Part shown: positions 30,462 through 39,359 of the stretch, in pieces
Numbering within the stretch: position 1 is the stretch's first letter
Layout of the letters: every line of letters begins with the position of its first letter
Source: Akkermansia muciniphila
GTDB lineage: Bacteria > Verrucomicrobiota > Verrucomicrobiia > Limisphaerales > BJHT01
Assembly (NCBI GenBank): GCA_945861535.1
Contig: CAMAUZ010000002.1
Coordinates: forward strand, 124,001 to 188,000
DNA length: 64,000 nt
Direction: 5' to 3'
Position numbers and translations under genes: made by a program
Notes under the pieces: generated by a model
Told to the model about the DNA's origin: nothing
Seen by the model: the letters and a program-made list of their open reading frames with translations, nothing else
Databases searched by the model: none

Positions 30462-32903
30462 TCACGCCGCAGACTTTGTTGCACTCCCCACTTTCACGCG
30501 CCGCGCACGCCCCAGCCACCCCGCACACGCGAAGCCCGTGAGCGCCGTCATCGCCAAGCCCGCGCGGAAAGCTTCGTCCTGATAAACGAGCGTCACGCGG
30601 CGCGCGCCAGCGGGCAGGACGACGGCTTGGAACGCGTGGTTGGCACGGAGCACAGGGGCGGGCTTCCCATCAATCTTCGCGCGCCAGCCGGGATAGAACG
30701 ATTGCGCCACCACGAGCATCGTCGGTACGGAGGTCTCGACTTCGAGTTCGATCCGCTCGGCGGAGAAACGCTGTGCGACGAGGCGCGCGTTGCCCCCGCT
30801 CGGCGTGGCCGCTGAGTCTGGCGTGATCTGCGCCGACACCGCACTCCGCGTTTCCTCCGGCAGAAACACCACTTCGCGCGGGTTGAAATTGGTCGCCCGC
30901 AGACCGTGCAACGTCGCGTCCGCATCCGCAAAGACCGGCCGCTGTCCGAGTGTCACGAGCGGTAGCGCGGTCGGCCGCGCCTGCCAATGGAAAATGTTCG
31001 TCGCCGACGGCATCGCTGCGACGCCGATGAAGTCGAGTAGCGCGCCGAGATTGCGATTGGTCGGCGAGAAGTACAGCACGGACCAGACCTGATGGTGCTC
31101 CTTCAAATAGAGGGAATAGAAGCCGTCGGCGAAGGGCACGTTGTCGAGCAGATGGCTGTCGGCGAACTGCGCGAGGCGGTGGCAGAGATAATCGTTGCCC
31201 GCATCCGGCACCATGCGCTTGAGCAGCACCTCGTAGGCAGGCGCGGGCGTCCACGCGCGCAGCCCGCCGGGCGCGATCTCGCGGGGCACCAGGAGCGCGG
31301 GCTGCCCGTCGGCCGTGACCGACGCGCCGAGTGGGTCCGGCGTGCTAGCGAGGTCCAGCCCCGACTGCTTCCAATGTTCGCGCAGTAATCCGGGCGCGTA
31401 GAGGTCCGGGTTGATGCCCGGATTCTGTTGTCCCGTGTGCGTCAGGCCGTCGCCCGCCACGGCGAGCGCCAGGGCCAGCGCCAAACCCAATCGCTGCACA
31501 TGCGGCGACGGACGACGCAAGGCCAGCACGAGTTCCAAAATCGCCACGAGAAAAAGCACGCGCCCCACCCCGTGCTGCCAGCTCGCCGTGAACGCCTCGC
31601 CCCGCAACGGCAGCGCGTACGAGCACGCCACGATCACGACCACCGCCACTCCCAGCGCGACGCCGACGCCCAGCAGCGCGCGACGCAGCGTGCGCTCCGG
31701 CATCCGCCCCGGCTCGGTCAGATGCGCCACCGCAAACGCCGCAAGCAGCGGAAAACAAAACGTCGCGAGCACCACGAACTTCACGGGGAACCGGAAGAAA
31801 CCGATGGGCGGAAAAACTTTGCGCAGCAGCGGATACACGAAGCTGTTGTCGCCGAGCGCGAGCAGCAGGCTCAACGCAAGCAGGCCGCCGAGCAGCCACG
31901 TCCGCCATTGGCGCACGAGCGCCGCGCCAAGCAGCGCCAGCGCCAGCACGCCGATGCCGGGGTAATACGAAGTCGTCCAGTCCTGCCCGGCCTGAAAACA
32001 CACGCCGACCGCGCTGGCGAACGAGCGAAACCGCGGCACGACCAGATTCGCCCAGCCCCATGCGGGCATGGACCACATCGCCGCATCGGCCTGGCCGGTG
32101 CTGCGGTGCGAGTGGCGGATCAATTCGAGAAACGGCAGCAGTTGCAGCGACGCGAGGCCCGCGACGATCACGCCCACGAGCGTGAGGCGAGCCAGCGGTG
32201 TCCACATCGCACGGCCCGCGCGGCGTTCCTCCCAGCTCCAGCCGATGGCGAACAAACCGAGCACGCACCAGGTGAACAGGATCACTTCCGGCGCGCCCGT
32301 GAGCATCTGCGTCGCGCCGATCAGCGCGGCCACGATCACAGCCCGGCCATCGCCGCGGAACGCGCGTTCGCCGAAAAGAATCACGAAGGGCATCCAGCCG
32401 AGCGCGGCGATGTTGTTCGGCCACATCAGGCAGTTCAGCGTGAGGCCGTTGAAGGCGAAAGCCATGCCGGCGACCGCCCCGGCGAGGCGGCTGCCGGTCC
32501 ACCGTTGCGCCAGCAAATACATGCCCGCGCCGGCGAGGACCTGGTGCAGCAGACAGAAGAGATTCAGCGACCACGGCAGCGGCAGCAGCAGGTAGATCAG
32601 CGAGCCGGGATAGAACACGAGCGTGTTCCACTGCGCGGCGAACGGCAGGCCCATCATGCTCAGCGGATTCCACTGCGGGATTTCGCCGCGCCAGAAACAT
32701 TCGCGATGATAATGCGCCAACGGATAGCCGAAGTAGGCGAAGTCGCGGATGTAAAACGTCTCCCAGCCGAGCAGGATTCTCGGATACGCCACCGCCACCA
32801 GCAGCGCGAGCAGGCCGACAAACCGCAGCGGCGTCAGGCCCGCGGGCAGCTCAAGCGCGGGCGCGACGGCGCGGGCGGATGCGGGATGCGTGGTGACGGT
32901 CAT
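30462..32903 (-). CDS. YfhO family membrane protein (copy 1)
   Basis: 813 residues from ATG 32903. A short soluble N-terminus is followed by the first helix and WETFYIRDFAYFGYPLAHY, then PQWNPLSMMGLPFAAQWNTL, the conserved periplasmic acidic/aromatic loop of YfhO and related polyisoprenol-linked glycosyltransferases. About twelve hydrophobic segments follow to residue 480, then a soluble C-terminal domain (about 500-790) and a last helix. YfhO proteins attach sugars from undecaprenyl carriers to cell-surface polymers or proteins. A longer paralogue lies immediately upstream on the same strand. This copy has no internal repeat insertions. Confidence 0.85.
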   Translation of the reverse strand: MTVTTHPASARAVAPALELPAGLTPLRFVGLLALLVAVAYPRILLGWETFYIRDFAYFGYPLAHYHRECFWRGEIPQWNPLSMMGLPFAAQWNTLVFYPGSLIYLLLPLPWSLNLFCLLHQVLAGAGMYLLAQRWTGSRLAGAVAGMAFAFNGLTLNCLMWPNNIAALGWMPFVILFGERAFRGDGRAVIVAALIGATQMLTGAPEVILFTWCVLGLFAIGWSWEERRAGRAMWTPLARLTLVGVIVAGLASLQLLPFLELIRHSHRSTGQADAAMWSMPAWGWANLVVPRFRSFASAVGVCFQAGQDWTTSYYPGIGVLALALLGAALVRQWRTWLLGGLLALSLLLALGDNSFVYPLLRKVFPPIGFFRFPVKFVVLATFCFPLLAAFAVAHLTEPGRMPERTLRRALLGVGVALGVAVVVIVACSYALPLRGEAFTASWQHGVGRVLFLVAILELVLALRRPSPHVQRLGLALALALAVAGDGLTHTGQQNPGINPDLYAPGLLREHWKQSGLDLASTPDPLGASVTADGQPALLVPREIAPGGLRAWTPAPAYEVLLKRMVPDAGNDYLCHRLAQFADSHLLDNVPFADGFYSLYLKEHHQVWSVLYFSPTNRNLGALLDFIGVAAMPSATNIFHWQARPTALPLVTLGQRPVFADADATLHGLRATNFNPREVVFLPEETRSAVSAQITPDSAATPSGGNARLVAQRFSAERIELEVETSVPTMLVVAQSFYPGWRAKIDGKPAPVLRANHAFQAVVLPAGARRVTLVYQDEAFRAGLAMTALTGFACAGWLGRARRVKVGSATKSAA

Positions 32904-33189: not shown

Positions 33190-33330
33190 CTGTAGCGCAG
33201 GCTTCCAAGCCTGCTGTGTCGCAGATTTCCAAATCTGCGTACGGCGGAATCGACTGGGGCGCTCGGACTTTCCAACGCCCTGCCGACTTGGAAGTCGGCG
33301 ACACAGCAGGCTTGGAAGCCTGCGCTACAG
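33190..33330. repeat. TTCCAA-hairpin palindromic element
   Basis: Perfect 33-base arms at 33190-33222 and 33298-33330. Within them are hairpins CAGGCTTCCAAGCCTG; between them CAGATTTCCAAATCTG and CCGACTTGGAAGTCGG. A related element lies at 40943-41101. The right arm contains the stop codon (33325-33327) and last codon of the second YfhO gene. Confidence 0.9.
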
Positions 33331-36159
33331 GTCTGGCGTGCGCCGTCGCCGACCCGCAACAATCCACCCGGCCGCACACGCGGCGAGGGTGATGCCCGAG
33401 ATCCCGAGGCCGGCGAGGAAACGGTCGTCGCGGTAGGTGAGCGCGAGGCGGCTGCGGCCGGCGGGCACGGGGACGGCCTGGAAGGCGTGGTTGGCGCGCT
33501 GCACGGGGACCGCGCGGTCGTTCACCGTCGCGCGCCAGTTGGGATGAAAGGATTGCGCGAGCACGACGACCGTGGGCGCGGTGGCTTCGACTTCGAGATT
33601 CACGGTGGTGGCGCTCCATTGCTGACCGAGAAAACGCACGCTGGCGGGGTTGTTCGTGGTGATGGTGTCGCGCGCGGTCGGCGCGAGAAAGACCGTTTGG
33701 CGGCTGTCGAAGGCGGGGTTCGCGAGCGCGGCGAGGGTTTGCTCGTCGGGGACGAACTGGATGCGTTGTCCGCCGGTGACCGTGGGCAGCCAGCCGGGGC
33801 GCGCGGTCCACTCGACGAATTTGCCAGGCGCGGTGAGATGCGCGATGCCGAGGAAATCGAGCAGCCCCGCGGGCGGCGCGTTGGTGCTGCCGTAGAGCAG
33901 TCGGTGGATGTCGGCTTGCGGACGGAGGTAGAGCGAGAAGACGCCGTCGGCCTTGGGCAGGGCGTCGAGCAGGTTGCAATTGTCGTAGAGCGCGACGCGT
34001 TTGAAGAGGTAGTCGCGGGACGGGTCGTTGATCGAGCTGGTGTGCAGTTCCAGCAGCGCGGCGCGGCTCACCATCGCGCGCGATTCGCCGTGGCGCGGAC
34101 GCGGATCGAGCGCGACCTCGCGCGGCGCATAGACCCACGCGGCGGCCGTCGGGTTCTGCCACGGCATGTGGGTGAGGATGTCGAGGAGCAGGAGGAGAAG
34201 GAGCAAGAGGGGTAGGGCTTGGGCGAGCTTGGCGTGGAACGGCACAGACGGCGACCAAGCGCCCAGGAGCGCGGCCTTCAGGCCGCTTCGGCCTCCTTCG
34301 TCGAGCGGTGTGGGAATAGCCTGGCCCGCTCGCAGTTCGCACGTCGAAGCGGCGTGAACGCCGCGCTCCGCCGCGCTGGCCGCGTCGCAGGCGCGCCGCA
34401 GCGCCACGCACGCGGCGAGAATCAATCCGAGCAGGACGGCGCGGCTGAGGCCGCTCTTCCACGTCGCGGACCACACGTCGTCTGCGAGCGGATAAAAGCG
34501 GGCGACGGCGAGAATGACGGCGATGAGAGCGAGCGCTGCGGTGCCGATGGCGAGTAGGGAGCGCGGGGCGGCGAGCACGCCAGCGCCGGATTGGCTGTCG
34601 GGATTTTTCAACAGATGTGCAACGCCGATCGCCGCCAGCAACGGCAGCGTGAAATTGGCGAGCAGCACGAATTTCACCGGATAGCGCATCACCTCGATGG
34701 CGGGGAAAACGCGGTGGACCCAGCCGTAGAGCAGCCCGGCGTCGCCGAGCGCGAGGAGCAGGCTCGCGGCGGTCAGCGTGGCGAGCACCCACGCCCTCCG
34801 GTCGCGCACGCGCACGATGGCCCAGAGCGCGAGCACCAGAACGCCGATGCCAGCGTAATACGAACTGGTCCAGTGCTGCGTGGTCTGCGCGAACACGCCG
34901 TGATGCGACGGGAACGCGCGAAAGAGCGGCACGAGCAGGTTCGCCCAGCCCCATGCGGGCATGGGCCATTCGCTTCCCGCATAGCCGCCGGTGCCGCGCT
35001 GGGACGCGCCGAGGAGTTCGAGGAAGGGGAGCAGTTGCGCGGCGCTGAGGAGCGCGACCAGGCAGACGAGAAGGAATCCGCGGGCTGCGACCACGAGCGC
35101 ATGGCGGGCGCCCGATTCGTCAGGAGCGCGGTCTTCAGGCCGCAGCGGCGCGGGCTGGCAATCGACGTCGGAGGCAGCACCGGCAGCGGTCAGCGGCGCG
35201 GGCTGTGGGGAAGGGGACGGCTTGGGTTCTTCGTGCGGGCCTTGCGATTCCACACCTCTGCGGCCTGAAGGCCGCGCTCGGCGCGACAGCGCCGCGGCCA
35301 CCCACAGCGCGCCGATCAGCGCCCAGGTGAGGAGGATGACCTCGGGCGCGCCGGAGAGCATTTGCAGCGCACCGACGAGCGCGGCGAGGAGCAACGTGCG
35401 ACCGCCTTCATTCACCGCGCGGCTGGCGAGGAGGACGAGCCACGGCATCCAGCCGAGCGCGGCGAGGTTGTTCGGCCACATCAGGCAGTGCAGCGTCAGG
35501 CCGTTGAAGGCGAAGGCCAGGCCCGCGACGGCCGCTGCCAGCGGGCGCGCGGTCCAGTGCGCGGCGAGGGCGTACATGCCCGCGCCCGCAAGCAGCAGGT
35601 GCGCGAGGCAGAAGACATTGAGCGACCACGGCAGCGGCAGCAGGAGGTAGATCAGCGACGGCGGGTAGAGCGTGAGCGTGTTCCATTGCGCGAGAAACGG
35701 GATGCCGAAGTTGTTCAGCGGATTCCACAGCGGCCATTCGCCGCGCCAGAAGGCCTCGCGATGAAACTGCGCCAGCGGATAGCCGAAATAGCCGAAGTCG
35801 CGGAAGAAGAACGATTGCGAGCCGACGAGCACGCTCGCGAACAGGACGCCGATCAGAACGGCGAGGAGCGCGGTGAAACGGCGGGGCGTGAGCCAGTCGC
35901 CCGGGGCCGGCGACGTGCTGGCGGGTGGATTGGAGCGCCGAGCCTTGCTCGGCATGACGGAGTCGGAGCCGTCGCTGCCGAGCAAGGCTCGGCGCTCCGG
36001 GGCGGCATTTTCCTCAAGCTTTGCGCCGGAATCCCGATGCAACACTGGCTCCATTTTCTCCGCCAACGGTTTTGGTCCGCGCCGGTTGAGCGGGAAAATC
36101 CAGCGCAGCCACGCAGGCGGGCGCGCGGTGGTGGCGGCGATATTTTTGAAGCTCGTCAT
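33325..36159 (-). CDS. YfhO family membrane protein (copy 2) with repeat-derived insertions
   Basis: 944 residues from ATG 36159 (an upstream ATG at 36186 adds nine). The core matches the 813-residue neighbour block by block: SFFFRDFGYFGYPLAQFHRE, PLWNPLNNFGIPFLAQWNTL, FAFNGLTLHCLMWPNNLAAL. Three stretches absent from the paralogue coincide with palindromic repeats in the DNA: about residues 54-76, 294-346 and 597-632, in the N-terminal cytoplasmic part and in loops between helices. They explain most of the 131-residue length difference, and the frame stays open through all of them. The stop codon itself lies in a fourth repeat. Role as for copy 1: membrane transfer of sugars from a polyprenol carrier. 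The gene is divergent from the methyltransferase-glycosyltransferase fusion with only about 32 bases between starts. Confidence 0.85.
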   Translation of the reverse strand: MTSFKNIAATTARPPAWLRWIFPLNRRGPKPLAEKMEPVLHRDSGAKLEENAAPERRALLGSDGSDSVMPSKARRSNPPASTSPAPGDWLTPRRFTALLAVLIGVLFASVLVGSQSFFFRDFGYFGYPLAQFHREAFWRGEWPLWNPLNNFGIPFLAQWNTLTLYPPSLIYLLLPLPWSLNVFCLAHLLLAGAGMYALAAHWTARPLAAAVAGLAFAFNGLTLHCLMWPNNLAALGWMPWLVLLASRAVNEGGRTLLLAALVGALQMLSGAPEVILLTWALIGALWVAAALSRRARPSGRRGVESQGPHEEPKPSPSPQPAPLTAAGAASDVDCQPAPLRPEDRAPDESGARHALVVAARGFLLVCLVALLSAAQLLPFLELLGASQRGTGGYAGSEWPMPAWGWANLLVPLFRAFPSHHGVFAQTTQHWTSSYYAGIGVLVLALWAIVRVRDRRAWVLATLTAASLLLALGDAGLLYGWVHRVFPAIEVMRYPVKFVLLANFTLPLLAAIGVAHLLKNPDSQSGAGVLAAPRSLLAIGTAALALIAVILAVARFYPLADDVWSATWKSGLSRAVLLGLILAACVALRRACDAASAAERGVHAASTCELRAGQAIPTPLDEGGRSGLKAALLGAWSPSVPFHAKLAQALPLLLLLLLLLDILTHMPWQNPTAAAWVYAPREVALDPRPRHGESRAMVSRAALLELHTSSINDPSRDYLFKRVALYDNCNLLDALPKADGVFSLYLRPQADIHRLLYGSTNAPPAGLLDFLGIAHLTAPGKFVEWTARPGWLPTVTGGQRIQFVPDEQTLAALANPAFDSRQTVFLAPTARDTITTNNPASVRFLGQQWSATTVNLEVEATAPTVVVLAQSFHPNWRATVNDRAVPVQRANHAFQAVPVPAGRSRLALTYRDDRFLAGLGISGITLAACAAGWIVAGRRRRTPDL
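34266..34369. repeat. GCGGC-family palindrome inside yfhO copy 2 (C-terminal)
   Basis: Arms 34266-34290 and 34345-34369 pair over 23 of 25 bases. The two mismatches are complementary swaps within the inner hairpins, GCGGCCTTCAGGCCGC on the left and GCGGCGTGAACGCCGC on the right, so each hairpin remains intact. Read in frame by the host gene. Confidence 0.9.
35123..35280. repeat. GCGGC-family palindrome inside yfhO copy 2 (middle)
   Basis: Arms 35123-35145 and 35258-35279 pair with one mismatch; inner hairpins GCGGTCTTCAGGCCGC and GCGGCCTGAAGGCCGC. The intervening 110 bases contain the direct repeat AGCGGCGCGGGCTG twice. Translated in frame to a Pro/Glu/Ser-rich loop (PHEEPKPSPSPQPAPL) between two membrane segments. 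Confidence 0.9.
35932..35998. repeat. GGAGCGCCGAGCC palindrome inside yfhO copy 2 (N-terminal)
   Basis: Perfect 23-base arms at 35932-35954 and 35976-35998 with inner hairpin GCCGAGCCTTGCTCGGC in each orientation. Read in frame by the host gene near its N-terminus, giving the RRALLGSDGSDSVMPSKARR stretch. Confidence 0.88.
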
Positions 36160-36191: not shown

Positions 36192-37586
36192 ATGACTCCT
36201 CGCCAGGAATTCTACGAACACCGCGCGCCCTACCGCGCGCTCGAAAGCGGGAGATTCTACCATCGGCTGGTGAACCGTTTTTTCTCCTACCTCGTGCCGC
36301 CCGGCCAGCGGGTGCTCGAGGTGGGGTGCGGCCTCGGGGATTTGCTCGCGGCGGTGCGGCCGGAGCGCGGCGTGGGCGTGGACTTCAGTCCAGCGACGGT
36401 CGAGATGGCGCGGCAGCGGCATCCGCAGCTCGAGTTCGTCGAGGCCAGCGCCGAGGCGTTCACGACCGGCGAGGCGTTTGATTACATTCTGTTGTCGGAT
36501 CTGGTGAACGATCTGCCGGACGTGCAGCTCGTTCTGGAGCGGTTGCGCGCGGTGTCGCATCCGCGCACGCGACTGGTGGTGAGCTTCTTCAACAACCTCT
36601 GGCGGCCGGTGCTCGATGTGGCGGCGCGACTCGGCTTCAAGGCGCCGACCATGTTGCAGAACTGGCTCTCGGCCTCCGACATGAAGAACCTGCTGCGGCT
36701 GGCGGGGTGGGAGGTCGTCACGCAGCAGACGCGCATCCTGTGGCCGGTGCGCACGCCGTTGCTCGACACGCTGCTGAACCGTTGGCTGGCCCCGGTGCTC
36801 GCTCCCTTTTGCCTGTCGGTCGTGCTCACGGCGCGACCGCGGCCGCTGGCGGCGGTGCGGCGCGAGTTCACCTGTTCGGTCGTGATTCCCGCGCGCAACG
36901 AGGCGGGCAACATCGAGGCGGCCGTGCAGCGCACGCCGGAGATGGGCCTGGGGACGGAGATCATTTTCATCGAGGGCCATTCGAAGGACAACACCTGGGA
37001 GGAAATCCAGCGCGTGGCGGCGAAGTATCCGCAGCGGAAAATCAAAATCCTGAAGCAGCAGAGCAAGGGCAAAGGCGGCGCGGTGCGCGAGGCCTTCGCG
37101 GCGGCGACGGGCGATCTGCTGTTCATCCTCGACGCGGACCTGACGATGCCGCCGGAGCAATTGCCGAAATTCTACGAAGTGGCGCGCTCGGGGCAGGGCG
37201 AGTTCGTGAACGGCGTGCGGCTGGTGTATCCGATGGAAGAGGAGGCGATGCAGTTCCTGAACATGATCGCGAACAAGCTCTTCGGCATCGCGTTCACCTG
37301 GCTGCTGGGCCAGTCGGTGAAGGACACGTTGTGCGGGACGAAGGTGCTGTTCCGGGCCGATTACGAGGCCCTCGCACGCAACCGCGCCTACTTCGGCGAC
37401 TTCGATCCGTTCGGTGATTTCGACCTGCTCTTCGGCGCGGCGAAGCTGAACCTGCACATCGTGGACCTGCCGATCCGCTACCAGGCGCGGACGTATGGCG
37501 AGACAAACATCCAGCGCTGGAGCCACGGCTGGCTGCTGCTGAAGATGGTGGTGTTCGCGGCGCGGCGGATGAAGTTCATCGCATGA
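36192..37586 (+). CDS. Methyltransferase-glycosyltransferase 2 fusion
   Basis: 464 residues. N-terminal half is a class I SAM-dependent methyltransferase (VLEVGCGLGDLL at 41-52, FDYILLSDLVNDLPD as the post-I acidic region). The C-terminal half (from about 225) is a GT-A family 2 glycosyltransferase: CSVVIPARNEAGNIE, an EGHSKDNTWEEI sugar-nucleotide site, LFILDADLTMPPEQLP with the DAD metal motif, and KDTLCGTKVLFRADY, as in dolichol/polyprenyl-phosphate hexose synthases. A polyprenyl-phosphate sugar made here could feed the adjacent YfhO proteins, which use such donors. ATG 36192 is preferred to a TTG seven codons upstream. A short soluble C-terminus means no membrane helix is obvious. Confidence 0.88.
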   Translation: MTPRQEFYEHRAPYRALESGRFYHRLVNRFFSYLVPPGQRVLEVGCGLGDLLAAVRPERGVGVDFSPATVEMARQRHPQLEFVEASAEAFTTGEAFDYILLSDLVNDLPDVQLVLERLRAVSHPRTRLVVSFFNNLWRPVLDVAARLGFKAPTMLQNWLSASDMKNLLRLAGWEVVTQQTRILWPVRTPLLDTLLNRWLAPVLAPFCLSVVLTARPRPLAAVRREFTCSVVIPARNEAGNIEAAVQRTPEMGLGTEIIFIEGHSKDNTWEEIQRVAAKYPQRKIKILKQQSKGKGGAVREAFAAATGDLLFILDADLTMPPEQLPKFYEVARSGQGEFVNGVRLVYPMEEEAMQFLNMIANKLFGIAFTWLLGQSVKDTLCGTKVLFRADYEALARNRAYFGDFDPFGDFDLLFGAAKLNLHIVDLPIRYQARTYGETNIQRWSHGWLLLKMVVFAARRMKFIA

Positions 37587-39146: not shown

Positions 39147-39176
39147 TGGTGCCGCGCTCCGGCACGGGCGCGCGCA

Positions 39177-39273
39177 GGGGCGCGGCCTTCAGGCCGCTTC
39201 AGTGTCCGAATGTCGCAGCGTGTTCGCACCTCGCCGCACGCAGCACGCTGAAGCGGCATAAATGCCGCGCTCC
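39177..39273. repeat. Double-hairpin palindromic element (GCGGC family)
   Basis: Arms 39177-39202 and 39248-39273 with inner hairpins GCGGCCTTCAGGCCGC and GCGGCATAAATGCCGC. The closing base pair of the inner hairpin differs between the arms but is paired in both. Flanked by the direct repeat CCGCGCTCCGGCACGGGCGCG, present on both sides (about 39152 and 39265), which could be a target or terminal duplication. Confidence 0.88.
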
Positions 39274-39359
39274 GGCACGGGCGCGAGTACGGAGCGGCTT
39301 CCCGGCTTTCCCTTTCAAGTCAGCGCGGCGTTCTGCCGATGGATTTGCCAAGGTATTTC

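Follow-up and report, generated by a model that had tools for sequence, protein, structure and literature searches.

The window analysed here, a stretch of 64,000 nucleotides of the forward strand of contig CAMAUZ010000002.1 from an uncultivated member of Verrucomicrobiota, contains two adjacent genes encoding YfhO-like membrane proteins. One of them carries three palindromic elements (P1, P2 and P3) inside its reading frame. The features of the locus and the related intergenic copy are as follows:

30462..32903, minus strand: neighbouring YfhO-like paralogue of 813 aa, from which the P1, P2 and P3 segments are absent.
33325..36159, minus strand: YfhO-like membrane protein gene (944 aa, open frame), host of P1, P2 and P3.
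34258..34377 (core 34266-34369), minus strand: P1, family-B REPIN-like element encoding about residues 597-632.
35123..35280, minus strand: P2, family-B REPIN-like element with a long spacer, encoding about residues 294-346.
35932..35998, minus strand: P3, complete family-A REPIN-like element of 67 bp (two inverted 22-nt REPs and a 23-nt spacer), encoding about residues 54-76.
39170..39274, plus strand: intergenic family-B copy (G000:C2:163170-163274).

The 944-residue protein matched the PF09586 (YfhO) profile in its C-terminal part only, with a score of 38.4 bits at a Pfam gathering cut-off of 28.5. Its orthologue in the genome of the sister species (LBMAG_Verrucomicrobia_hypo.bin2, DNA identity about 90%) is 83% identical at the protein level. 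A model of coding potential, with the present genome as its training set, gives the gene a strong signal in a single frame that is interrupted at the elements: the score is zero or negative at P3, P2 and P1 and becomes positive again on either side, in the same frame. The original prediction placed the palindromes inside an open frame and described the neighbouring paralogue as lacking the corresponding segments; the positions were borne out to within a few bases, and the segments are missing from the paralogue for all three elements. In addition, a GTAG-tagged palindrome pair (33190..33330) overlaps the end of the gene, and its TAG is the YfhO stop codon; the arrangement is identical in the sister species.

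Comparison of the arms showed a match of 85% for P1 (34258-34290/34345-34377), 82% for P2 (35124-35161/35242-35279) and 100% for P3 (35932-35954/35976-35998). In P3, GGAGCGCCGAGC-N-TTGCTCGGC is present twice, in inverted orientation, on the two sides of the 23-nt spacer; the arms of P1 and P2 belong to family B (GGAGCGCGGCCTTCAGGCCGC and GGAGCGCGGCGTTCACGCCGCTTC). The predicted RNA fold of P3 has an energy of -61.5 kcal/mol. The folding z-scores were -10.3 for P3, -5.2 for P1 and only -1.8 for P2, the spacer of which is long.

An AlphaFold model of the YfhO-like protein (20 sequences, mean pLDDT 77.7) places P3 inside the disordered residues 18-81, and P2 in a low-confidence stretch (300-336) between the helices 272-295 and 348-371. 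P1 lies between the helices 563-609 and 641-662, directly at the point where a long predicted helix ends. The expectation that the insertions would map to the N-terminal region and to loops, not to membrane helices, is supported by the disordered and low-confidence stretches of the model, but P1, abutting a long helix, does not occupy a simple loop.

Both families are dispersed in the genome. The family-A 22-mer (no more than one mismatch) had 133 matches in this genome (7.9 Mb) and 72 in the sister genome, both of which are fragmented draft assemblies, whereas the reversed control of this 22-mer gave no matches in the genome search. In a 1.235-Mb sample, 18 of the 19 family-A REPs were arranged as nine inverted pairs, each 66-68 bp in length, the spacers of which are unrelated. 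The two family-B arms were found in 88 and 39 copies, respectively (no more than two mismatches, 2.43 Mb). Chance palindromes are ruled out by this copy number together with the reversed-pattern control. Two of the three elements had been assigned to a family that is intergenic elsewhere in the window, and the family-B copy at about 39170-39274 agrees with this; P3 belongs to the other family, found elsewhere in the genome.

By definition, a REPIN is a pair of inverted REPs around a short and very diverse spacer (PMC8049555), and REPs are defined by a GT(A/G)G tetranucleotide (PMC3686654). Since the tag of families A and B is GGAG (the elements end in GGAG/CTCC), they are referred to here as REPIN-like, a variant of the type; other REP families in this genome begin with GTAG. 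As for the RAYT transposases, nine Y1_Tnp matches were detected in this genome. A protein encoded on contig C94 (G000:C94) scored 83.3 on the NF047646 model (REP_Tyr_transpos, cut-off 80), and its gene has a full family-A element on either side. According to a reading of the frames, this gene (L168) seems frameshifted near its N-terminus, between 'GFLGW' and 'ERGYLPH', so that it is only a putative active copy. A RAYT-like gene on contig C34 lies between elements of a different REPIN family, and no RAYT linked to family B was found. Another RAYT-like gene (C118) has the REP GTAGCTCGACATTCCAATGTCGAG on its flanks; the same REP occurs within three genes (G000:C4:168458, C5:85907 and C10:38091), where it is each time read as LDIGMSSY.

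A census of dispersed repeats was made in 2.43 Mb with 1426 called genes. Only 2982 of 58070 repeat bases (5%) lie in called genes, which cover 78% of the sequence; the share of 95% outside genes was obtained with k-mers selected as mostly intergenic, and without that selection it was 93%. In about 20 of the 1426 genes, repeats lie internally and in frame, flanked on either side by coding DNA, and several of these genes have more than one; the count is approximate because the gene caller was home-made. The requirement of mostly intergenic copies dropped the cytochrome-like coding motif CARCHDHK, which mimicked a repeat in the first census. The hosts include UvrA (three sites), IspG/GcpE, an MFS transporter, a CMAS methyltransferase, a DUF1365 protein and an AcrB-type transporter, and in IspG, MFS, CMAS and AcrB the Pfam match is broken into two stretches. 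GTAG-tagged GTAGCCGCCGACGTGAGGAGGCGG elements lie wholly inside ORFs of more than 120 aa in MFS, FtsX-like, cytochrome and PSD1-like genes. The YfhO elements are tagged GGAG and so fall outside the GTAG class of intragenic REPs.

Three of the host genes may be described individually. The uvrA gene (L220, G000:C16:74115-77786) has three in-frame inserts, the third of which belongs to family B here and is GTAG-tagged in the sister species. The ispG gene (GcpE; L104, G000:C3:127279-129132), usually essential, contains a GGTAGGGCGCG REPIN here and an array of the ATTTGAA type in the sister, both in frame. In the PSD1-like gene (G000:C5:88009, sister L139), 7-nt arrays are of the GAGCTTT type here and of the GAAATTT type in the sister.

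The comparison with the sister species covered 18 sites in 13 genes; C19, C10:37756 and others, which had no usable sister match or lay outside the query, were excluded. All 18 sites are occupied and open in both species. The length differs at 10 sites (3, 63, -78, -18, -48, 6, -72, -3, -12 and -21 nt), and every difference is a multiple of three, for which the chance probability is (1/3)^10. Clean empty sites were searched for in the sister genome at the 18 sites, and none was found, so that no dated insertion event was seen. With about 20 host genes in 2.43 Mb and the frame kept at 18 of 18 sites, the proposed in-frame extension of protein genes by mobile palindromes in this lineage is supported.

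All three YfhO sites are occupied in the sister species. P3 is the same element there, with a 3-nt indel and the frame kept; its arms differ symmetrically, being CCTTG/CAAGG here and CATTG/CAATG in the sister, where they have the form of the family consensus. At P1, the sister has a shorter, chimeric element (the difference of -78 nt was measured with unique 12-mer anchors). At P2, it has two tandem GGAGTGCGGCCGTCCCCGGCCGC elements in frame, as opposed to family B here; this GGAGTGC family has 452 matches in the sister genome and 115 in this one. Directly upstream of P3, 57 nt (36005-36061) are identical in both species, against a difference of about 10% in the gene; this stretch may contain the promoter of a divergent gene starting near 36192. 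Its assignment to a larger mobile unit was rejected for this genome, where only the ~70-bp element recurs.

It can be supposed that P3 is not translated, the true start being located downstream and P3 being a repeat of the 5' leader. The N-terminal ~85 residues of the protein, and not P3 alone, are missing from the homologues examined and have no counterpart outside the genus among these sequences, which would fit such a supposition, and Di Nocera et al. caution that many N-terminal REPs are extragenic (PMC3733652). However, the two species share no in-frame ATG, GTG or TTG in the stretch from the second REP arm to the first membrane helix, and the frame is conserved across P3 with a 3-nt indel. 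An untranslated P3 seems unlikely.

In elements shared by the two species, divergence was 2.8% in the arms (9/319), 10.0% in the flanking coding DNA and 15.5% in the spacers. Such values, together with the symmetric changes in the P3 arms and the strong predicted fold of P3, could be expected if the elements were RNA or DNA hairpins regulating the host gene, with translation a by-product and the arms kept by selection. Most elements were, however, chosen in this genome by their match to the consensus, which lowers the expected arm divergence; the low value is for this reason only suggestive, and selection is not claimed. The functions of the host genes are also unrelated, and the content differs at several sites. 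Regulation by hairpins is considered an improbable account of the elements.

The content of the site was unrelated between the two species at four to five sites, namely, YfhO P2, the third UvrA site, DUF1365 and IspG, with a change of array type in the PSD1-like gene. Bacterial strains commonly exchange tracts of DNA, and short tracts acquired from other lineages by homologous recombination could produce differing contents with no new insertion; the flanks do remain alignable. Nevertheless, the identity of the flanks is about 88-95% up to both element borders, so the exchanged tracts would have to end near the element edges; this explanation seems very unlikely. Unrelated repeats at the same spot in sister species point indirectly to mobility and suggest an ongoing rewriting of protein loops by mobile DNA. 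Excision of REPINs was seen in reads of P. fluorescens SBW25 (PMC3116915), which makes turnover at a site plausible.

Taken together, the palindromes are most probably (probability about 0.8) REPIN-like non-autonomous mobile elements that are copied by RAYT transposases and kept in frame in flexible loops, which stay tolerant slots. RAYT transposases of the HUH/Y1 family would copy the elements around the genome, as the RAYT gene flanked by family A suggests. For an insertion inside a gene to survive, its net length would then have to be divisible by three, its sequence to be free of stops and its position to be in a flexible loop; frame keeping is observed at the compared sites, and survival in loops alone is presumed. 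The loop would continue to serve as a tolerant slot, where elements may diverge, become duplicated and give way to other repeats; the content differs between the species, and replacement is the proposed route. The host protein is probably translated through the elements, as judged from the conservation of the frame.

In homologues of the YfhO-like protein elsewhere in the order, including those of named Pedosphaera and Verrucomicrobia genomes, the loops at the P1 and P2 positions are mostly short, and no homologue aligning around P3 was found outside the genus among the sequences examined. It had been proposed earlier that gaps in orthologues coinciding cleanly with the borders of the repeats would be a sign of insertion. 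Such gaps are present only at P1 and P2, and there in distant homologues. In the closest orthologue all three positions are filled, and P3 has no aligned outgroup. In addition, YfhO-like genes of four genomes from three other families of the order (G052, G104, G110 and G125) contain in-frame palindromes in the P2 loop or in a loop near residue 520. The inserted DNA represents in each case dispersed repeats of the respective genome; G104 has an element of 150 bp tagged GTAG, for instance, and G110 a pair of 70-130 bp, with dozens of copies apiece.

These data may be understood in two ways. Certain loops could simply be permissive, each lineage having received independent insertions in the same few tolerant loops and lost the older ones. 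The occurrence of unrelated repeats in the same YfhO loops in several families, with many empty homologues between them, requires repeated independent hits, and Di Nocera et al. likewise favour neutral insertion in linkers and loops (PMC3733652). On the other hand, only about 20 of 1426 genes have internal repeats, yet all 18 sites are filled in both species; had the hits been independent, the majority of sites should be vacant in one of the two. At most of the 18 sites, moreover, one and the same element can be recognised. Independent insertion without any memory of the site is a substantial possibility, not far short of even odds. Alternatively, certain loops in the order might be lasting landing slots, opened by a REPIN, in which the occupant is swapped for that of an active family, so that surface loops, including those of usually essential enzymes, would be continuously rewritten. 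The idea of lasting slots is put forward tentatively, with the odds somewhat against it.

As regards known systems, the REPIN/RAYT system of Pseudomonas and Stenotrophomonas (PMC3116915, PMC8049555, PMC3686654) is considered the closest parallel; a RAYT gene flanked by family-A elements was found. The two share the inverted REP doublet, the short variable spacer, the high copy number, the mostly intergenic location and a RAYT flanked by its own elements (family A here). They differ in that families A and B are tagged GGAG instead of GT(A/G)G, many families coexist in one genome, and copies are present in frame inside genes. Replacement of one REP class by another over time in related strains has been described as the REP orthoswitch (PMC3686654), which concerns REPs flanking orthologous RAYTs, whereas the difference observed here is at fixed sites inside other genes.

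Rickettsia palindromic elements (RPEs) insert in frame in protein genes. They had been offered as the parallel in the original prediction and share in-frame palindromic insertions in many unrelated proteins (here 18/18 sites in 13 genes), but they are second best: RPEs end in CGTC and have no dedicated transposase (PMC3733652), whereas the present elements have GGAG at their ends, and a RAYT is associated with one of the families.

Intragenic GTAG REPs, most numerous in Opitutus terrae, which likewise belongs to Verrucomicrobia, and present in other bacteria, were reported by Di Nocera et al. in 2013 (PMC3733652), so the core finding is of a known kind. In O. terrae, uvrA genes have two inserts each, REP dimers code for 20-30 residues, and neutral insertion in linkers or loops was considered. 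Common to both cases are REP dimers in reading frames within the same phylum, some genes with two inserts, and uvrA as a host. The present genome differs in having non-GTAG families as well, three elements in one YfhO gene, and unrelated occupants at some orthologous sites of the sister species. Neither unrelated elements at one site in sister species nor a recurrent occupation of particular YfhO loops by different repeat families within an order was found in the open-licence literature, which is weak evidence of novelty. The newer parts are the GGAG-tagged elements and the exchange of content at fixed protein loops.

The elements described represent a route by which non-coding mobile repeats may become protein sequence in bacteria outside Rickettsiales. 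The sister species, at about 90% DNA identity, allows the fate of the insertions to be followed: the frame is kept, the arms remain recognisable, the spacers drift, and several contents are unrelated. This makes it possible to test the reuse of old insertion sites by mobile repeats and whether the additional loops are tolerated or put to use by host proteins such as UvrA, IspG and YfhO.
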